Positions 33,360 to 40,162 of a stretch of 44,905 bases of DNA are shown piece after piece. The DNA comes from Acidobacteriota bacterium (GTDB lineage: Bacteria > Acidobacteriota > Polarisedimenticolia > Gp22-AA2): contig JAGYID010000010.1 of assembly GCA_018606725.1 (NCBI GenBank), positions 1-44,905 of the forward strand, read 5' to 3'. How positions within the stretch are numbered: the stretch's first letter is position 1; each line of letters starts with the position of its first letter. The translations under genes and the position numbers were made by a program. The notes under the pieces were generated by a model. It was not told where the DNA came from. It ran no database searches and saw only the letters and a list, made by a program, of their open reading frames with translations.

Positions 33360-34601
33360 ATGGAGCGTCGCGTCGTCATCACGGGGGTCGGGCTGGTGTC
33401 GCCCCTCGGCGTCGGAAACGAGGTGAACTGGAGCGCCCTGACCCGGGGCCAGAGCGGGATCGGGCCGATCACCCGTTTCGATGCCACCGACTACGCCTGC
33501 AAGATCGCCGGGGAGATCAAAGGCTTCCAGGCCGAGGACTGGGTGCCGAAGAAAGACGTCAAGAAGATGGACCTGTTCATCCAGTACGCCATGGCGGCCT
33601 CGGAGATCGCCATGCGCGACGCGGCCTACCGGGTGAGCCCGGCCGAGGCCGAGCGCGTCGGCGTCTACATCGGGTCGGGCATCGGCGGGCTGCCCTCGAT
33701 CGAGCGCCAGCACGCCAGCCTGCTCAAGGAAGGCCCGCGGCGCATCTCGCCCTTCTTCATCGTCGGTCTCATCGTCAACATGCCTTCGGGCCAGGTGTCG
33801 ATCCGTTACGGCGCCAAGGGCCCGAACCAGGCGGCCTGCACCGCCTGCTCGACCGGCACGCACGCCATCGGCGACGCCTTCGAGATCATCAAGCGCGGCG
33901 ATGCCGACGTCATGATCGCCGGCGGCACCGAGGGGGTGATCACCCCGCTGTGCGTCGGCGGCTTCAGCGCCATGAAGGCTCTGTCGACGCGCAATGACGA
34001 CCCGGGGCGCGCCTCGCGGCCGTTCGACGCGGATCGCGACGGCTTCGTCATCGGCGAGGGGGCGGGGATCGTCATCCTCGAGGAGATCGGTCACGCGGTG
34101 CGTCGCGGCGCGCGAATCTACGCCGAGATCGCCGGCTACGGCCTGTCGGCCGACGCCCATCACGTGGCGGCGCCGCCGGACGACGGCGAAGGCGCGGTGC
34201 GGGTCATGCAGCGGGCGATCGCCGACGCCGGCATCGACGCGTCGGCCATCGAGTACATCAACGCCCACGGCACCTCGACGCCGCAGGGGGACGCCGCCGA
34301 GACGCGCGCGATCAAGAAGGTGTTCGGCGCGCGCGCCCGCTCGGTCGCCGTCAGCAGCACTAAGTCGATGACCGGCCACCTGCTGGGTGGCGCCGGCGGG
34401 CTCGAGACGGCCATCCTCGCGCTGACCGTGCACCACGGCATCCTGCCGCCCACCATCAATTCCACGACGGCCGACCCGGAGTGCGATCTGGATTACGTCC
34501 CCAACGAGGCGAGGCGCGCCCGCGTCCGCTACGCGCTCAATAACTCCTTCGGTTTCGGCGGAACGAACGCCGCCCTCGTGCTGAAGGCTTACGAGGAATA
34601 A
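33360..34601 (+). CDS. fabF: 3-oxoacyl-ACP synthase II
   Basis: Elongating ketosynthase of 413 residues. Nucleophile Cys163 is in TACSTGTHAIGDA, and the two histidines are in NAHGTSTPQGD (about 303) and SMTGHLLGGAGG (about 341); the C-terminal NNSFGFGGTNAALVL is standard. It ends the lipid operon. A convergent minus-strand gene ends 10 bases further on, with no terminator visible between them. Confidence 0.96.
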   Translation: MERRVVITGVGLVSPLGVGNEVNWSALTRGQSGIGPITRFDATDYACKIAGEIKGFQAEDWVPKKDVKKMDLFIQYAMAASEIAMRDAAYRVSPAEAERVGVYIGSGIGGLPSIERQHASLLKEGPRRISPFFIVGLIVNMPSGQVSIRYGAKGPNQAACTACSTGTHAIGDAFEIIKRGDADVMIAGGTEGVITPLCVGGFSAMKALSTRNDDPGRASRPFDADRDGFVIGEGAGIVILEEIGHAVRRGARIYAEIAGYGLSADAHHVAAPPDDGEGAVRVMQRAIADAGIDASAIEYINAHGTSTPQGDAAETRAIKKVFGARARSVAVSSTKSMTGHLLGGAGGLETAILALTVHHGILPPTINSTTADPECDLDYVPNEARRARVRYALNNSFGFGGTNAALVLKAYEE

Positions 34602-34611
34602 GGCGCGCCGC

Positions 34612-35685
34612 TCAGACTTCCGGGAAGATCGAATCCCTCAGGCAGTTCAGCTTCTGTTCGTAGGACTCGGGATAGACGAACCAGCAGGCGGCGGCGACGC
34701 TGCTGATCAGGGCGTTGCCGTCCTGGGGGGTGAAGCAGAAGCCGACCACCTCCGTGCCGTTGTGGACGCTCAGGGCCGGGACCACCAGGACCGCCTGATT
34801 GAGGATGCGGCCGTAGTGCCCGTAGTCGCGGCCGAACGAGAAGACCGAGTTGGCCGATTGCTTGTAAGTCAGCGCCATGCGGTCGTCCGCCTTGCAGCGC
34901 TCCAGGATCGCCTCCACCGAGGTGGGCTTGCGAACCCGGATGTTGAAGTGGATGGCGTGCATGTACTGGCTGTTGACCTTGAGGGCGGAGGAGTACAAAT
35001 CGAGGTCGTGACCGAGCCCGTTGAACAGGTGCCAGGCGTCGCGCGCGTGGTGCGTCCCGAAGCGCTCGTCCTTGTGGCGGTTCACCTGGGGCGACGGCAC
35101 GAACGAGCTGTCCTGGCTGATGTCGTTGGCGCGGCGGATGCACACGAAGCGCCCGCTCAGGAAATTCGCCGGGTCGCCGTCCGGCAGGCCGATGAGATCG
35201 ATCAGCACCGCCAGATTGTGGGTGTTGCACGACACCACATGGATGAACTGATCGACGCCGTGCTTCAGGGTCCTGTCGGAGATGCCGCGGGCGTACATCT
35301 TGCCGAAGCCGAATTCCGAGCCCTGCGCGATGAAGCCCAGGGTGTTGTGGGCGTACTTCTCGTAGATCTCCTTCTTGTTCTGCAGGCCGACGTCGGAGGG
35401 TGTGCAATCGATGACCACGGTTGCCTGCCGCAGCGCCTCGTGGTGCTCGTAGGCCGATTCGATACCGATGTCACGGAAGCCGCGGCGCGCGGACTCGTCG
35501 GCGGCCAGCCGGGCACCGCGCTTGATCAGGTTGATCACCTTCGAGCGATCGGTCAGCAGCGGCGTCCGCTTGTGGAAGGTCACTTCGTCGAATCCGAGCT
35601 CGTCCTTCTTGCTGGCGAACAGACCGATCAGCGGTTCGCCGATCGTTCCGGTCCCGATGATGTGCACGACTTTTTTCGCGGCCAT
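34612..35685 (-). CDS. Archaeal-type (type II) glyceraldehyde-3-phosphate dehydrogenase homologue
   Basis: A 357-residue protein whose closest recognisable relatives are archaeal type II GAPDHs. The Rossmann start is VVHIIGTGTIGEPLIGLF. VIDCTPSDVGLQNKKEIYEK (91-110) matches the archaeal VDATPxGxGxKNKxLYE segment. VVSCNTHNL has the expected catalytic Cys153, and RRAND...THHARD supplies His212/213 at the archaeal SHH position. Residues differ widely elsewhere, so substrate and direction are unproven, and a related dehydrogenase role is possible. GGGAGA precedes the ATG. It is a single gene with its own promoter between the fab operon and the PTS cluster. Confidence 0.72.
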   Translation of the reverse strand: MAAKKVVHIIGTGTIGEPLIGLFASKKDELGFDEVTFHKRTPLLTDRSKVINLIKRGARLAADESARRGFRDIGIESAYEHHEALRQATVVIDCTPSDVGLQNKKEIYEKYAHNTLGFIAQGSEFGFGKMYARGISDRTLKHGVDQFIHVVSCNTHNLAVLIDLIGLPDGDPANFLSGRFVCIRRANDISQDSSFVPSPQVNRHKDERFGTHHARDAWHLFNGLGHDLDLYSSALKVNSQYMHAIHFNIRVRKPTSVEAILERCKADDRMALTYKQSANSVFSFGRDYGHYGRILNQAVLVVPALSVHNGTEVVGFCFTPQDGNALISSVAAACWFVYPESYEQKLNCLRDSIFPEV

Positions 35686-35708
35686 GGCGCTCTCCCGGAG
35701 GCGTGGGA

Positions 35709-35737
35709 AACATACCCCAATGGTCCCGGATGGTCAA
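35709..35737 (-). promoter_or_regulatory. Promoter for the type II GAPDH homologue
   Basis: On the minus strand, TTGACC (35737-35732), a 17-bp spacer and TATGTT (35714-35709). The predicted start near 35702 leaves a leader of about 17 bases. Confidence 0.55.
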
Positions 35738-35751
35738 TCGAGGAAATCGGG

Positions 35752-35757
35752 TAGAAT
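35752..35757 (+). promoter_or_regulatory. Possible -10 box for hprK
   Basis: TAGAAT lies 66 bases before the hprK TTG. No good -35 is seen where expected (about 35729-35734), and that place overlaps the divergent GAPDH promoter, so the two may be co-regulated or compete. Confidence 0.35.
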
Positions 35758-35823
35758 GACCGCGACTTCCAGCCTCCCGCGGGCGCCGCGGACGTCGCTC
35801 GGATCGGCGCACGGAGGGGACCA

Positions 35824-36777
35824 TTGATCCAAACCCAAACGACCCAGCCGACCCTGCCGGTGGGGGATCTCCTGGCCGACGCAATCCCGGAGCTGGCGCT
35901 GCGCTGCGCCGCCGGCTCACAGGGATTGCGGCGGTCGATCACCGTCCCGGCCGTCGATCGACCCGGTCTGGCGCTGGCCGGCCAGCCGGAGACGCTGCGG
36001 GCCGGTGCGGTCCAGGTCCTCGGCCGGAGCGAGCTGGCGTACCTGGCTCAGATCGCCGAGCAGGAGCGCCGGTCTCTTCTCGAACGGCTGTCGCGCACCT
36101 CCATCGCCTGTCTGATCCTGGCGCACGGCTCGCCGCCGCTCCCGGACCTCGTGGCGGCGGCGGATTTGGGCGGCGTGCCTCTGCTCATCACGACACGATC
36201 GACCGACCGGGCCGTCGAGCTGCTCGGCCGCTTCCTGGAGGATCACCTCGCCCCGACGATGACCATCCACGGCACGCTGATCGACATCTACGGCGTGGGG
36301 GTGCTGATCCTCGGCGAGAGCGGGGTCGGCAAGAGCGAGTCGGCCCTCGAGCTGATCCTGCGGGGCCACCGGCTGGTGTCCGACGACACGGTCACGGTGC
36401 GCCGCATCGGCAATATCCTCAACGGCACCGGCGCGGAGATCAGCCGCTACCACATGGAGCTGCGGGGACTGGGGATCATCAACATCAAGGACCTCTACGG
36501 GGTGGCGGCGGTGCGCGAGCGCAAGGACGTCGATCTGGTCGTCAAGCTCGACCCCTGGCAGGAGAACAAGGAATACGATCGCCTGGGGCTCGATGAGAAG
36601 CTCTACCCGCTCCTCGGGGTGGAGCTGCCATTCATCGAGATGCCGGTCGGACCCGGGCGCAACCTGTCGATCCTCCTCGAGGTCGCCGCCCGCCACCACC
36701 TCCTGAAGCGCAAGGGCTACCACGCCGCCAAGGAGCTGGCCGGCCGGATCCACGACGCCCTCGGAAGGAAAGCGTGA
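35824..36777 (+). CDS. hprK: HPr kinase/phosphorylase
   Basis: Bifunctional enzyme that phosphorylates HPr on Ser46 and reverses this; 317 residues. The N-terminal domain is about 1-130. The catalytic domain has IHGTLIDIYGVGVLI (H149), Walker A GESGVGKS at 164-171, Asp187/188 (VSDDTV), and the signature MELRGLGIINIKDLYG. The TTG start at 35824 follows GGAGGGG (35813-35819). It overlaps rapZ by four bases (GTGA). HPr with an intact Ser46 is encoded three genes downstream, so the regulatory pair is complete. Confidence 0.94.
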   Translation: MIQTQTTQPTLPVGDLLADAIPELALRCAAGSQGLRRSITVPAVDRPGLALAGQPETLRAGAVQVLGRSELAYLAQIAEQERRSLLERLSRTSIACLILAHGSPPLPDLVAAADLGGVPLLITTRSTDRAVELLGRFLEDHLAPTMTIHGTLIDIYGVGVLILGESGVGKSESALELILRGHRLVSDDTVTVRRIGNILNGTGAEISRYHMELRGLGIINIKDLYGVAAVRERKDVDLVVKLDPWQENKEYDRLGLDEKLYPLLGVELPFIEMPVGPGRNLSILLEVAARHHLLKRKGYHAAKELAGRIHDALGRKA

Positions 36778-37670
36778 GCGAGCCTGGCGCCGGCGCTCTC
36801 GGGGCCGAGCCGCACATCGTCATCATCACCGGGCTGTCGGGCTCCGGAAAGACCCTGGTCATCCGCGCCTTCGAGGACATGGGCTACTTCTGCGTCGACA
36901 ACCTGCCGGTGCAGCTGATCCCGGTGTTCGCCGATCTGTGCGCCCGCTCGCGTCAGGAGTTGGCGCGCGCGGCGCTGGTCGTCGACGTGCGGGAGCGCGC
37001 CTTCCTGAAGGAGTTCCCGGCCATGTTCGACGGGCTGCGGCAGCGCCGCGGCCGCAGCGTCGGTCTGCTGTTCCTGGAGGCATCCGACGAGTCGCTGATC
37101 CGCCGCTTTTCCGAGACCCGCCGGCCGCACCCTCTGGCGTCGGGGGGCTCGGTCGAGCAGGGGATCGCGCGCGAGCGCGCCGCCCTGGCGCCACTGCGGG
37201 ATCGGGCCGACCTGATCATGGACACGAGCGCCTTCAACGTGCACCAGCTGCGGCGCTATGTGCAGACCCATTTCGCCGCCCACCCGGGCGGCCAGGACCT
37301 GTCGATCGCGGTGGTGTCGTTCGGCTACAAGCACGGCCTGCCGGCCGAGTCCGACCTGCTGTTCGATACCCGCTTTCTGCCCAATCCCTTCTTCGTCGAG
37401 GACCTGCGCGGCCGGACCGGTCTCGACCCCGAAGTGGTCGCCTATCTGGAGGCGATCCCGGAATACGGCGGACTCCGCTCCCGGATCGTCGAGCTGATGA
37501 CCTTTCTGATCCCGCAGTACCAGCGGGAGGGGAAGAGCTATCTGACCGTCGCGCTGGGGTGCACCGGTGGCAAGCACCGCTCGGTGGCGATGGCGGAGGC
37601 GGTCGGCGGGGCCCTGCGCGAGGCCGGGTACGCCGTCAAGACGTCGCACCGCGATCTGGGGAAGGAATGA
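36774..37670 (+). CDS. rapZ: RapZ family nucleotide-binding protein
   Basis: A 298-residue P-loop protein (formerly YvcJ/YhbJ). In E. coli RapZ is an RNA adaptor that controls amino-sugar synthesis through small RNAs; other functions are less clear. Walker A GLSGSGKT is at 20-27, followed by FEDMGYFCVDNLP; the C-terminal part has YLTVALGCTGGKHRSV, the RNA-binding fold. The GTG start overlaps hprK. Linkage to hprK and PTS genes is common in many phyla. Confidence 0.94.
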   Translation: MSEPGAGALGAEPHIVIITGLSGSGKTLVIRAFEDMGYFCVDNLPVQLIPVFADLCARSRQELARAALVVDVRERAFLKEFPAMFDGLRQRRGRSVGLLFLEASDESLIRRFSETRRPHPLASGGSVEQGIARERAALAPLRDRADLIMDTSAFNVHQLRRYVQTHFAAHPGGQDLSIAVVSFGYKHGLPAESDLLFDTRFLPNPFFVEDLRGRTGLDPEVVAYLEAIPEYGGLRSRIVELMTFLIPQYQREGKSYLTVALGCTGGKHRSVAMAEAVGGALREAGYAVKTSHRDLGKE

Positions 37671-38114: not shown

Positions 38115-38384
38115 ATGGTGCGTCGCGAGGTCGAGATCACCAATGCGATGGGCCTGCACGCCCGCGCCGCGGCGCGCTTCGTCCAGGTGGCGACCCGGTT
38201 CCGCAGCCGGGTGCAGATCGCCCGTGACGGTCGGCTGGCCGACGGCAAGTCGATCCTCGGGCTGCTGACCCTCCTCGGCAGCCAGGGCAGCCGGCTGGTG
38301 ATCAGCGTCGACGGTTCCGACGAGCAGGAAGCCCTCCGGGCGCTGGTCGAGCTGGTGGAGGCGCGCTTCGGGGAGGAACGCTGA
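38115..38384 (+). CDS. ptsH: Phosphocarrier protein HPr
   Basis: An 89-residue HPr. Both control residues are present: His15 (AMGLHARAAARFV), phosphorylated by EI, and Ser46 (DGKSILGLLTL), the HprK target. It lies between EIIA and EI and overlaps EI as TGATG. Confidence 0.96.
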   Translation: MVRREVEITNAMGLHARAAARFVQVATRFRSRVQIARDGRLADGKSILGLLTLLGSQGSRLVISVDGSDEQEALRALVELVEARFGEER

Positions 38385-40162
38385 TGGAGAGCGCTTCCGA
38401 GACCCTGCGCGGCACCGGGGTGTCGCCGGGCATCGCCATCGGGCGGGCCCTCGTCCTCGAGTCGTCCAGCATCTCACTGTTCCGCCTCGACCTCGACCCC
38501 GACGGCGCCGAGCGCGAAGTCACCCGTTTCCAGCGCGCCATCAAGCGCGCCTGGCGGCAGCTCCGGGATCTGCGGGACCGGGTGCGCCGCGAAGCGGGGG
38601 AAGCGTATGCGCGCGTCTTCGAGGCGCAGATCCTGATCCTCAGGGATCGTCACCTGCACCGCGAGACCGCCTCCTTGATCCGCCGCGAGCGGGTCAACGC
38701 CGAGTGGGCCTTCCACACGGTCGTCGGCCGGTACACGCGGGTGTTCGCGCACCTCGGCGATCCGGACTTGCGCGAGCGCGGCACCGATATCGAGGACGTC
38801 GCCGTCCGCGTGCTGGCGGCGCTGACGGGGAGCGTCCGCCGGCACGACCTGTCCGAGCTGACCGACGACGTCATCGTCGTGAGTTCCGAGCTGTCGCCGT
38901 CCGACGCCGCCGGTCTCAACCGCGACCACGTCATTGGCCTGGCGATCGATGGCGGCGGCCCCACATCGCATACCGCGATCATCGCCAGCGCCCTCGACAT
39001 CCCGGCGGTGACCGGGCTGCGCGACGCCAGTTCCCGGGTGCGTCCCGGCGAGATGGTGATCCTCGACGGGGCGTCGGGGACCCTGCTGCGCGGCCCCGGC
39101 GAGGAGGAAATCGCCTCCTGGCGGGCCCGGCGGAACCGCCAGGCGCAGCGCGAGCTCGATTTGATGTTGCTGCGCGAGCAGCCGGCGGTGACCCTGGAAG
39201 GGGTGCGCATCAGGCTGCTTGCCAACATCGAGCTGCCGGACGAGGTGGCCACCGCGCGACGCTACGGGGCCGAGGGGGTCGGCCTGTACCGCTCGGAGTT
39301 TCTCTACCTGCGCCAGGCGCCGCGCCTGCCGGACGAGGAGGATCACTACGGCGCCTACCGCGCTCTCGCCGAGGGCGCGCTGCCGCACGCGGTCGTCATC
39401 CGCACCCTCGACCTCGGCGGCGAGAAGCGCTTTGCGGCCCTCCCGGAGCGGCGCGAGACCAACCCCGTCCTGGGGCTGCGGGCCATCCGGCTGTGCCTGC
39501 GGCATGAGGAAGTGTTCCGGGCCCAGTTGCGCGGCATCTTCCGCGCCGGCGCGCATGGCAAGGTGCGGATGATGCTGCCGATGGTGAGCGGCCTGACCGA
39601 GCTGCGGCGGGCGAAGGCGGTGATCGGGGCGGTCCGCGACGAGCTCGCCCGGGAGCGGGTGCCGTTCGATCCCGACGTGCCGTTGGGCATCATGATCGAG
39701 GTGCCGTCGGCGGCCCTGGTGGCGGAGCACCTGGCGGACGAGGTCGACTTCTTCTCCATCGGCACCAACGATCTGATCCAGTACGTCCTCGCCATCGACC
39801 GCGGCAACGAGGATGTCTCCTACCTCTACCAGCCGCTCCATCCGGCCATCCTCGCCCTGGTGCGGCGGGTGACCGAGGCGGCGGCCCGGCGCGGGCTTCC
39901 CGTTGCGGTGTGCGGCGAAATGGCCGCCCGGCCGCGGTCGGCGATGATGCTCATCGGCCTGGGGGTGACCGAGCTGAGCATGAGCCCGTCGGCCATCCCG
40001 GAGATCAAGCAGATGATTCGCGGTCTGACGATGCGCGAGGCGCGCGAACTGGCGGAGGAGGCGCTGGCCCTCGACAGCGCCGAAGCGATCGAGGAACTGG
40101 TGTCCCGGCGCCTGGCGGTCCCGGCGGTGGGAAGCGGCGGGAGGCGGGAGGCGGAGGGATGA
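38384..40162 (+). CDS. ptsI: PTS enzyme I (phosphoenolpyruvate-protein phosphotransferase)
   Basis: Transfers phosphate from PEP to HPr; 592 residues. The N-terminal HPr-binding domain contains active-site His196 in GGPTSHTAIIA. The C-terminal PEP-binding barrel has VGLYRSEFLYL, NPVLGLRAIRLCL, SIGTNDLIQYVLAIDR and the catalytic Cys in VAVCGEMAA. It is coupled to ptsH by a one-base overlap and to the cupin gene by four. Its PEP supply could come from ppdK in the same window. Confidence 0.96.
   Translation: MESASETLRGTGVSPGIAIGRALVLESSSISLFRLDLDPDGAEREVTRFQRAIKRAWRQLRDLRDRVRREAGEAYARVFEAQILILRDRHLHRETASLIRRERVNAEWAFHTVVGRYTRVFAHLGDPDLRERGTDIEDVAVRVLAALTGSVRRHDLSELTDDVIVVSSELSPSDAAGLNRDHVIGLAIDGGGPTSHTAIIASALDIPAVTGLRDASSRVRPGEMVILDGASGTLLRGPGEEEIASWRARRNRQAQRELDLMLLREQPAVTLEGVRIRLLANIELPDEVATARRYGAEGVGLYRSEFLYLRQAPRLPDEEDHYGAYRALAEGALPHAVVIRTLDLGGEKRFAALPERRETNPVLGLRAIRLCLRHEEVFRAQLRGIFRAGAHGKVRMMLPMVSGLTELRRAKAVIGAVRDELARERVPFDPDVPLGIMIEVPSAALVAEHLADEVDFFSIGTNDLIQYVLAIDRGNEDVSYLYQPLHPAILALVRRVTEAAARRGLPVAVCGEMAARPRSAMMLIGLGVTELSMSPSAIPEIKQMIRGLTMREARELAEEALALDSAEAIEELVSRRLAVPAVGSGGRREAEG

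Follow-up and report, generated by a model that had tools for sequence, protein, structure and literature searches.

A widespread, deep-branching lineage in the type II (archaeal) GAPDH superfamily, encoded next to PTS genes in an acidobacterium

Background

A gene resembling those for archaeal GAPDHs in the genome of an acidobacterium raises the questions of whether its product belongs with the archaeal (type II) enzymes and, if so, what such an enzyme would do in a bacterium. The gene lies in a stretch of 44,905 nucleotides (contig JAGYID010000010.1 of assembly GCA_018606725.1, positions 1 to 44,905, forward strand), the whole of which is called the window below. A preliminary description, made from the sequence alone, had placed the protein with archaeal type II GAPDHs, called that group rarely described in bacteria, and proposed a bypass, a biosynthetic or gluconeogenic enzyme, or a new aldehyde dehydrogenase as its function. 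The analysis dealt with the homology, fold and conserved residues of the protein and with its lineage; it also covered the mutual exclusion of its family and canonical type II (one archaeal sample), the adjacency of pgk in relatives from archaea and the type I GAPDHs of the host. From all these we infer the activity, cofactor and direction of the window enzyme. The reading favoured here, with a probability of about 0.72, is that the gene encodes a phosphorylating GAPDH of a deep type II branch, which in this host would be the NADP-linked, gluconeogenic or anabolic partner of NAD-linked type I enzymes.

A 2019 paper states that class II GAPDHs of bacteria lack functional evidence, and the class II bacterial GAPDH of that paper, which may belong to another lineage than the window protein, was inactive in assay (PMC6543838). 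In a 2025 review, one table gives NAD-dependent GAPDH and GAPN for bacteria (PMC12965863). No description of the present lineage was found in the open-access PMC literature, where absence is not proof.

The gene and its neighbourhood

The ORF was confirmed at 34612-35685, on the minus strand (left unstated in the preliminary description), with its ATG at 35685-35683 and its stop codon, included in these coordinates, at 34614-34612; it encodes a type II-like GAPDH of 357 amino acids. Cys153 (in SCNTH), the THH motif (T211-H212-H213) and the segment from C94 to K105 (CTPSDVGLQNKK), on which the proposed assignment had been based, could all be read in the translation. A collection scan identified 204 stretches encoding relatives, the best 80 of which were analysed; these best 80 of 204 loci, in other genomes, match over nearly the full length with 54-89% identity, and the GC3/GC2 of the frame is 0.90/0.41, both of which place the ORF far from chance.

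A possible ribosome-binding site (GGGAG, 35692-35696, minus strand) was read from the sequence a few bases 5' of the ATG, and a promoter-like site (TTGACC-17-TATGTT, 35709-35737, minus strand) is located upstream of it. Since one sigma-70-like site was found on the GAPDH strand (35737-35709) against 0.1 in shuffled sequences, and since the six close acidobacterial relatives aligned all share the TTGAC of the window, the earlier proposal that the gene has its own promoter is reasonably supported.

On one side, a beta-ketoacyl synthase (fabF-like) gene on the plus strand (33360-34601) is convergent with the GAPDH gene, with 10 bases between the two stop codons. On the other, the gene for HPr kinase/phosphorylase (hprK, 35824-36777, plus strand) is divergent, and is followed by rapZ (36774-37670) and then by ptsI (38384-40162), in keeping with the PTS regulators that had been noted there. 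The divergent GAPDH/hprK intergenic region (35686-35823) is short, and by eye the hprK strand of several relatives also shows a pair resembling TTGACAG/TAGAATG. Among the 81 loci compared, no ORF family recurred in more than about 11, leaving aside the gene itself and overlapping ORFs in other frames, so that bacterial neighbourhoods offered few clues.

Relationship to known GAPDHs

By curated models, the window protein is neither a type I nor a canonical archaeal type II GAPDH. Against Pfam, Gp_dh_C remained below threshold (13.2 of 24.4 bits) and Gp_dh_N gave no match at E values up to 10, and the active-site motif is SCNTH, as opposed to SCTTN in type I. The two type II models were matched at scores below their cut-offs, at 83.8 bits (cut-off 185; E 1.1e-23) for NCBIfam NF003251 and 53.2 bits (cut-off 232.9) for TIGR01546. 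Although GAPDH is a core enzyme, the window protein thus stays below every curated GAPDH cut-off applied to it.

Kinship with type II was evident all the same at the levels of profile, PDB sequence, fold and tree. In an alignment of the window protein with 42 of the best 80 relatives (alignment A1, assembled without deep members and later extended by 14 more), all 43 members matched both NF003251 and TIGR01546 (best E 1.4e-32), whereas type I models matched 13 of the 43 (best E 1.8e-4). The PDB sequences matched by the single window protein were the archaeal GAPDHs 2yyy, 1cf2, 1b7g and 2czc, and the same entries led a profile search against PDB (2yyy, E 6.8e-21). An AlphaFold2 model of the protein (pLDDT 92.2, pTM 0.91) was superimposed on 1b7g, 1cf2, 2czc and 2yyy over 322-328 residues with VIA Z values of 36.0-37.0 (rmsd 2.1-2.3), the next-best entries being type I GAPDHs at Z 27.1 and lower; the same four archaeal structures were the top four in Foldseek. 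The whole-chain fold is hence nearer to archaeal type II than to type I, and the active-site Cys, RR..D and His of the type II superfamily are conserved.

That the protein belongs to a different Rossmann family, be it that of aspartate-semialdehyde dehydrogenase, ArgC or the non-phosphorylating aldehyde dehydrogenases, is accordingly very improbable. Semialdehyde models do give some matches, as does one structure (2qz9, Z 25.9), but the matches in A1 are fewer and weaker than those to type II GAPDH (asd_B, 8 of 43, best E 2.3e-4), and the fold scores about 10 Z units higher against archaeal GAPDHs. Neither closer kinship to another Rossmann family nor the lack of a GAPDH fold, the two outcomes against which the preliminary description had set its proposal, was seen: every A1 member matched the type II GAPDH models, and the structural similarity extends over the whole chain. 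An affiliation with the ArsJ-linked GAPDH of arsenate resistance was also considered and rejected, as the model NF033735 missed the window protein and matched just one of the 43 A1 members (E 0.0038).

Conserved residues

Among 70 aligned family members, C153, R184, R185, D188, D216, H243, R286 and R293 were invariant and K39 was kept in 65; the columns of C153, R184, R185, D188 and H243 were invariant in 20 canonical archaeal rows as well. Features common to 57 family rows and these 20 canonical rows comprise the dinucleotide motif, Lys39, Asp93, Pro96, Gly122, Glu124, SCNT (152-155), Arg184-Arg185, Asp188, His212-His213, Asp216 and His243. H243, rather than the THH motif, is probably the catalytic His and would likely serve as the base, as its column corresponds to that of the catalytic His in M. 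fervidus GAPDH (Cys140/His219 in that protein). Lys39 stands just after the second beta strand, at the position of a Lys in the canonical archaeal enzymes; it would contact the 2'-phosphate of NADP, and its presence predicts NADP(H) use by the window protein.

The family therefore shares with canonical archaeal type II (2yyy, 1cf2, 1b7g, 2czc; NF003251, TIGR01546) the whole-chain fold, SCNT, RR..D, HH, the position of the catalytic His and the NADP-type Lys, but identity to the window protein in structural alignments is only 20-23%. The active-site motif reads SCNTT in canonical type II and SCNTH in the window family, and the blocks AQGSEFGFGKMYA, FSFGRDHG and TPQDGN distinguish the family from canonical type II. 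H156, Q240, K275, R293 and TPQDGN (319-324) are near-invariant in the family and absent from canonical type II.

Phylogeny and taxonomic distribution

In trees, the family was separated with 100/100 support from 20 canonical archaeal and 2 bacterial type II rows. With type I included, the 57 family rows formed one side of a branch with 93/90 support, recovered in 92% of 200 bootstrap trees, in a bootstrap that had not settled. A larger tree left out type I and was rooted on canonical type II; in it the 56 bacterial rows formed one clade (100/99; 100% of 200), adjoined by nine archaeal rows, with five more archaeal rows outside. This larger tree comprised 14 archaeal rows, one of 15 (L129) being left out as the same gene as another (L062), and the carrier G346, whose gene is cut short by a contig edge to about 127 codons, is included in the count of 15 archaeal carriers below and stands outside the trees. 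The family is thus its own deep lineage in the type II (archaeal) GAPDH superfamily, so that the relationship to archaeal type II that had been proposed stands, while membership of the canonical clade does not.

By their record titles, the best 80 of the 204 loci are from Acidobacteria, Planctomycetota, Neomarinimicrobiota, Krumholzibacteriota, Acidimicrobiia, Deltaproteobacteria, Bipolaricaulota, Entotheonella, one Thermoplasmatota archaeon and others. Genome samples were named by phylum after the titles of the records used as sample centres, and a strong family match was defined as one above 190 bits, weaker A1 matches (including two small fragments in G196) being scored as absent. Such matches were present in 68 of 297 genomes of the window's phylum (Acidobacteriota) and in 32 of 34 of its class (own genome, family and order counted), in 46 of 80 genomes of the phylum of a Neomarinimicrobiota record, and in 15 of 60 genomes of the phylum of the record titled Thermoplasmatota. 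With regard to the rarity in bacteria suggested earlier, the counts in Acidobacteriota and Neomarinimicrobiota point the other way: the family is a widespread but poorly catalogued branch of GAPDH, common and not rare.

The placement of the archaeal rows fits a single passage from Thermoplasmatota-like archaea to bacteria, a direction that depends on rooting and sampling. In a more extended scenario, put forward tentatively as somewhat less probable than not, the family would be a third major phosphorylating GAPDH lineage, after type I and canonical type II. Bacteria would have acquired it from a Thermoplasmatota-like archaeon; it would then have spread through many phyla as an NADP-linked enzyme of gluconeogenesis alongside type I, and have become the sole GAPDH of Entotheonella, of some archaea and of streamlined marine bacteria.

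Two peculiarities were observed among the Neomarinimicrobiota. Five members (L189-L193, in G371, G411, G377, G382 and G431) form a diverged subclade in which Lys39, Thr155 and both His residues of THH are lost while Cys153 and His243 are retained, possibly reflecting a changed cofactor or substrate. The family copy at G373:C14:143960-145021 contains three in-frame TGA codons in a full-length match, which may represent decay, error or recoding.

Co-occurrence with other GAPDHs and with PGK

The archaeal genomes were searched for three kinds of GAPDH (the family, canonical type II and type I), and the family was called the sole candidate where the other two kinds were absent; the bacterial genomes were searched for the family and type I. 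PGK was sought in the archaeal sole-candidate genomes and in the Neomarinimicrobiota without type I. In the archaeal sample, type I was called from PF00044 matches above 50 bits because canonical type II proteins score 25-36 bits there. The 60 archaeal genomes included 15 with the family, 33 with canonical type II over cut-off and 12 with type I. The family and canonical type II occurred together in none of the 60 (Fisher P 3e-7, a test that treats genomes as independent; the exclusion counts genomes and not independent events), and none of the 15 carriers had a protein over the NF003251 cut-off. Type I was also present in 4 of the 15, while 11 were without canonical type II and without any match to type I, and all 11 of these had PGK.

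In six of the 11 (G304, G325, G334, G340, G350 and G354), PGK was encoded directly upstream on the same strand, with 13-16 bases between the ORFs. Because all six pairs belong to one archaeal clade, they may stem from one event. PGK was not adjacent in G303, G315, G345 and G349, and the family gene of G358 is on a short contig without PGK.

Type I was absent from nine of the 80 Neomarinimicrobiota genomes (0.8-1.5 Mb for the six that follow), and six of the nine carried the family, all six with PGK. Since absence of type I was noted in 6 of 46 carriers versus 3 of 34 non-carriers, there is no clear association alone, and the case for this phylum rests on the six genomes that each have both the family and PGK. 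The other three have PGK and neither family nor type I GAPDH, and 5 of the 60 archaeal genomes had none of the three kinds, so that some absences may reflect incomplete genomes. For 37 of the 80 related loci the genome was searched for type I, and six of these genomes lacked it, among them that of the Entotheonella record titled chromosome.

On the sequence data, some archaea and streamlined marine bacteria appear to have no phosphorylating GAPDH other than this family. Its occurrence as the sole candidate in PGK-bearing genomes, together with adjacency to pgk, provides the strongest reasons for calling it a phosphorylating GAPDH, and the window protein itself is quite probably one. The same two observations make a new aldehyde dehydrogenase, one of the functions first proposed, less likely than a true GAPDH; of those functions, a gluconeogenic or anabolic GAPDH is favoured. 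A genome annotated by the curated models alone could seem to lack the GAPDH step, as in the six PGK-bearing Neomarinimicrobiota without type I.

Coexistence with type I was nevertheless the rule in bacteria, being found in 65 of 68 carriers in Acidobacteriota, 40 of 46 in Neomarinimicrobiota and 31 of 37 others (G440 is in the last two sets). In the window's lineage the family has consequently not replaced type I, and its substrate there could be shifted. It is conceivable that bacterial members were recruited to a different aldehyde, either phosphorylated or activated at a carboxyl group (such as erythrose-4-phosphate or a biosynthetic semialdehyde), with only the archaeal and sole-candidate members being true GAPDHs. 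Besides the presence of type I in most bacterial carriers, the residues missing from canonical type II (H156, Q240, K275, R293 and TPQDGN 319-324) count in favour of recruitment, as does the result that no PGK-like ORF (E <= 1e-15) was found in the 0-6 kb flanks of the best 80 of 204 related loci. However, A1, in which H156, Q240, K275 and R293 are invariant, includes L013, L019, L024, L045, L055, L058 and L082, all from genomes in which type I is missing, and upon addition of the 14 archaeal rows H156, K275 and R293 remained invariant and Q240 was kept in 98% of the 57. That the same residues occur in archaeal members and in those of type I-less genomes argues for one substrate throughout, and recruitment is regarded as improbable.

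Type I enzymes of the host and the proposed role

The preliminary description had suggested checking the genome for a bacterial type I gene, and three were present. Two form a tandem pair on one contig with a phosphofructokinase nearby, and the third (G000:C175, L186, 1-3.2 kb) is followed by PGK and then by an ORF reading as TPI (by eye). All three have an Asp (in NDL, CDI and NDV; by eye) at the site where this residue presumably marks an NAD-type enzyme. These proteins share the superfamily fold, and likely the reaction, with the window protein, but differ from it in this NAD-type Asp; type I structures align to it at Z of about 27 against 36-37 for the archaeal enzymes, and it lacks Gp_dh_N.

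The combination of NAD-type type I enzymes in the host with an NADP-type Lys in the window protein suggests, at about even odds, an NADP-linked, gluconeogenic or anabolic counterpart. By homology, Cys153 would form a hemithioacetal with GAP and His243 would help to pass hydride to the nicotinamide cofactor; phosphate would then resolve the thioacyl enzyme, giving 1,3-bisphosphoglycerate, or all steps would run backwards. In the host, the enzyme would most likely run mainly in the NADPH-consuming, gluconeogenic direction, in the manner of GapB, the NADP-linked GAPDH of B. subtilis. The two are alike in their proposed role as NADP-linked partners of an NAD-linked GAPDH; GapB is a type I protein, whereas the window protein is type II-like and we infer its role. 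With the family spanning many phyla, this bears on whether bacteria divide the GAPDH step between NAD-linked type I and NADP-linked type II enzymes.

Alternatively, the window protein could be a redundant or condition-specific GAPDH using NAD or both cofactors and working in the glycolytic rather than the gluconeogenic direction. The divergent hprK and the PTS genes that follow suggest a carbon-state context, and both NAD+ and NAD(P)+ appear as cofactors of archaeal GAPDHs in a review (PMC12965863). Yet with three NAD-type enzymes in the host, one of them encoded before PGK, a further NAD-linked GAPDH would be redundant, and conservation of K39 in 65 of the 70 members also argues against it, so this alternative is considered unlikely, and the NADP-linked gluconeogenic or anabolic partner is preferred.

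The genes of the host tandem pair (G000:C95, L185, approximately 3.9-6.4 kb) are about 1 kb apart, and the second has an altered active-site motif (SCTAHC). Such tandem type I pairs occurred in 28 of 46 family carriers versus 0 of 34 non-carriers among the 80 Neomarinimicrobiota genomes, and at least two type I matches in 53 of 68 carriers versus 39 of 229 other genomes in Acidobacteriota, both comparisons being uncorrected for phylogeny.

Relatives on plasmid and phage records

Plasmid and phage records contained distant type II proteins only (14 and 1 records, respectively, with 25-27% identity). The bacterial plasmid proteins (Meiothermus, Roseovarius, Rhizobium and others) belong to the type II superfamily and have the Cys and RR..D in common with the window protein, but are only about 25-27% identical to it (14 records). 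The two plasmid proteins examined group with canonical archaeal type II and have Asp at the position of Lys39. Two plasmid neighbourhoods were inspected and gave no functional clue. On the Meiothermus plasmid (L107, 3.0-5.1 kb), an orthodox bacterial type II GAPDH gene comes right after pfkA. The phage match (MT839732.1, 710-1300; H15; 25.2% identity) is a type II GAPDH in a 4-kb record titled Bacteriophage sp., from human faeces; it matches over the same span as the Rhizobium/Agrobacterium plasmid proteins, and the record is perhaps bacterial DNA rather than the source of a phage gene.
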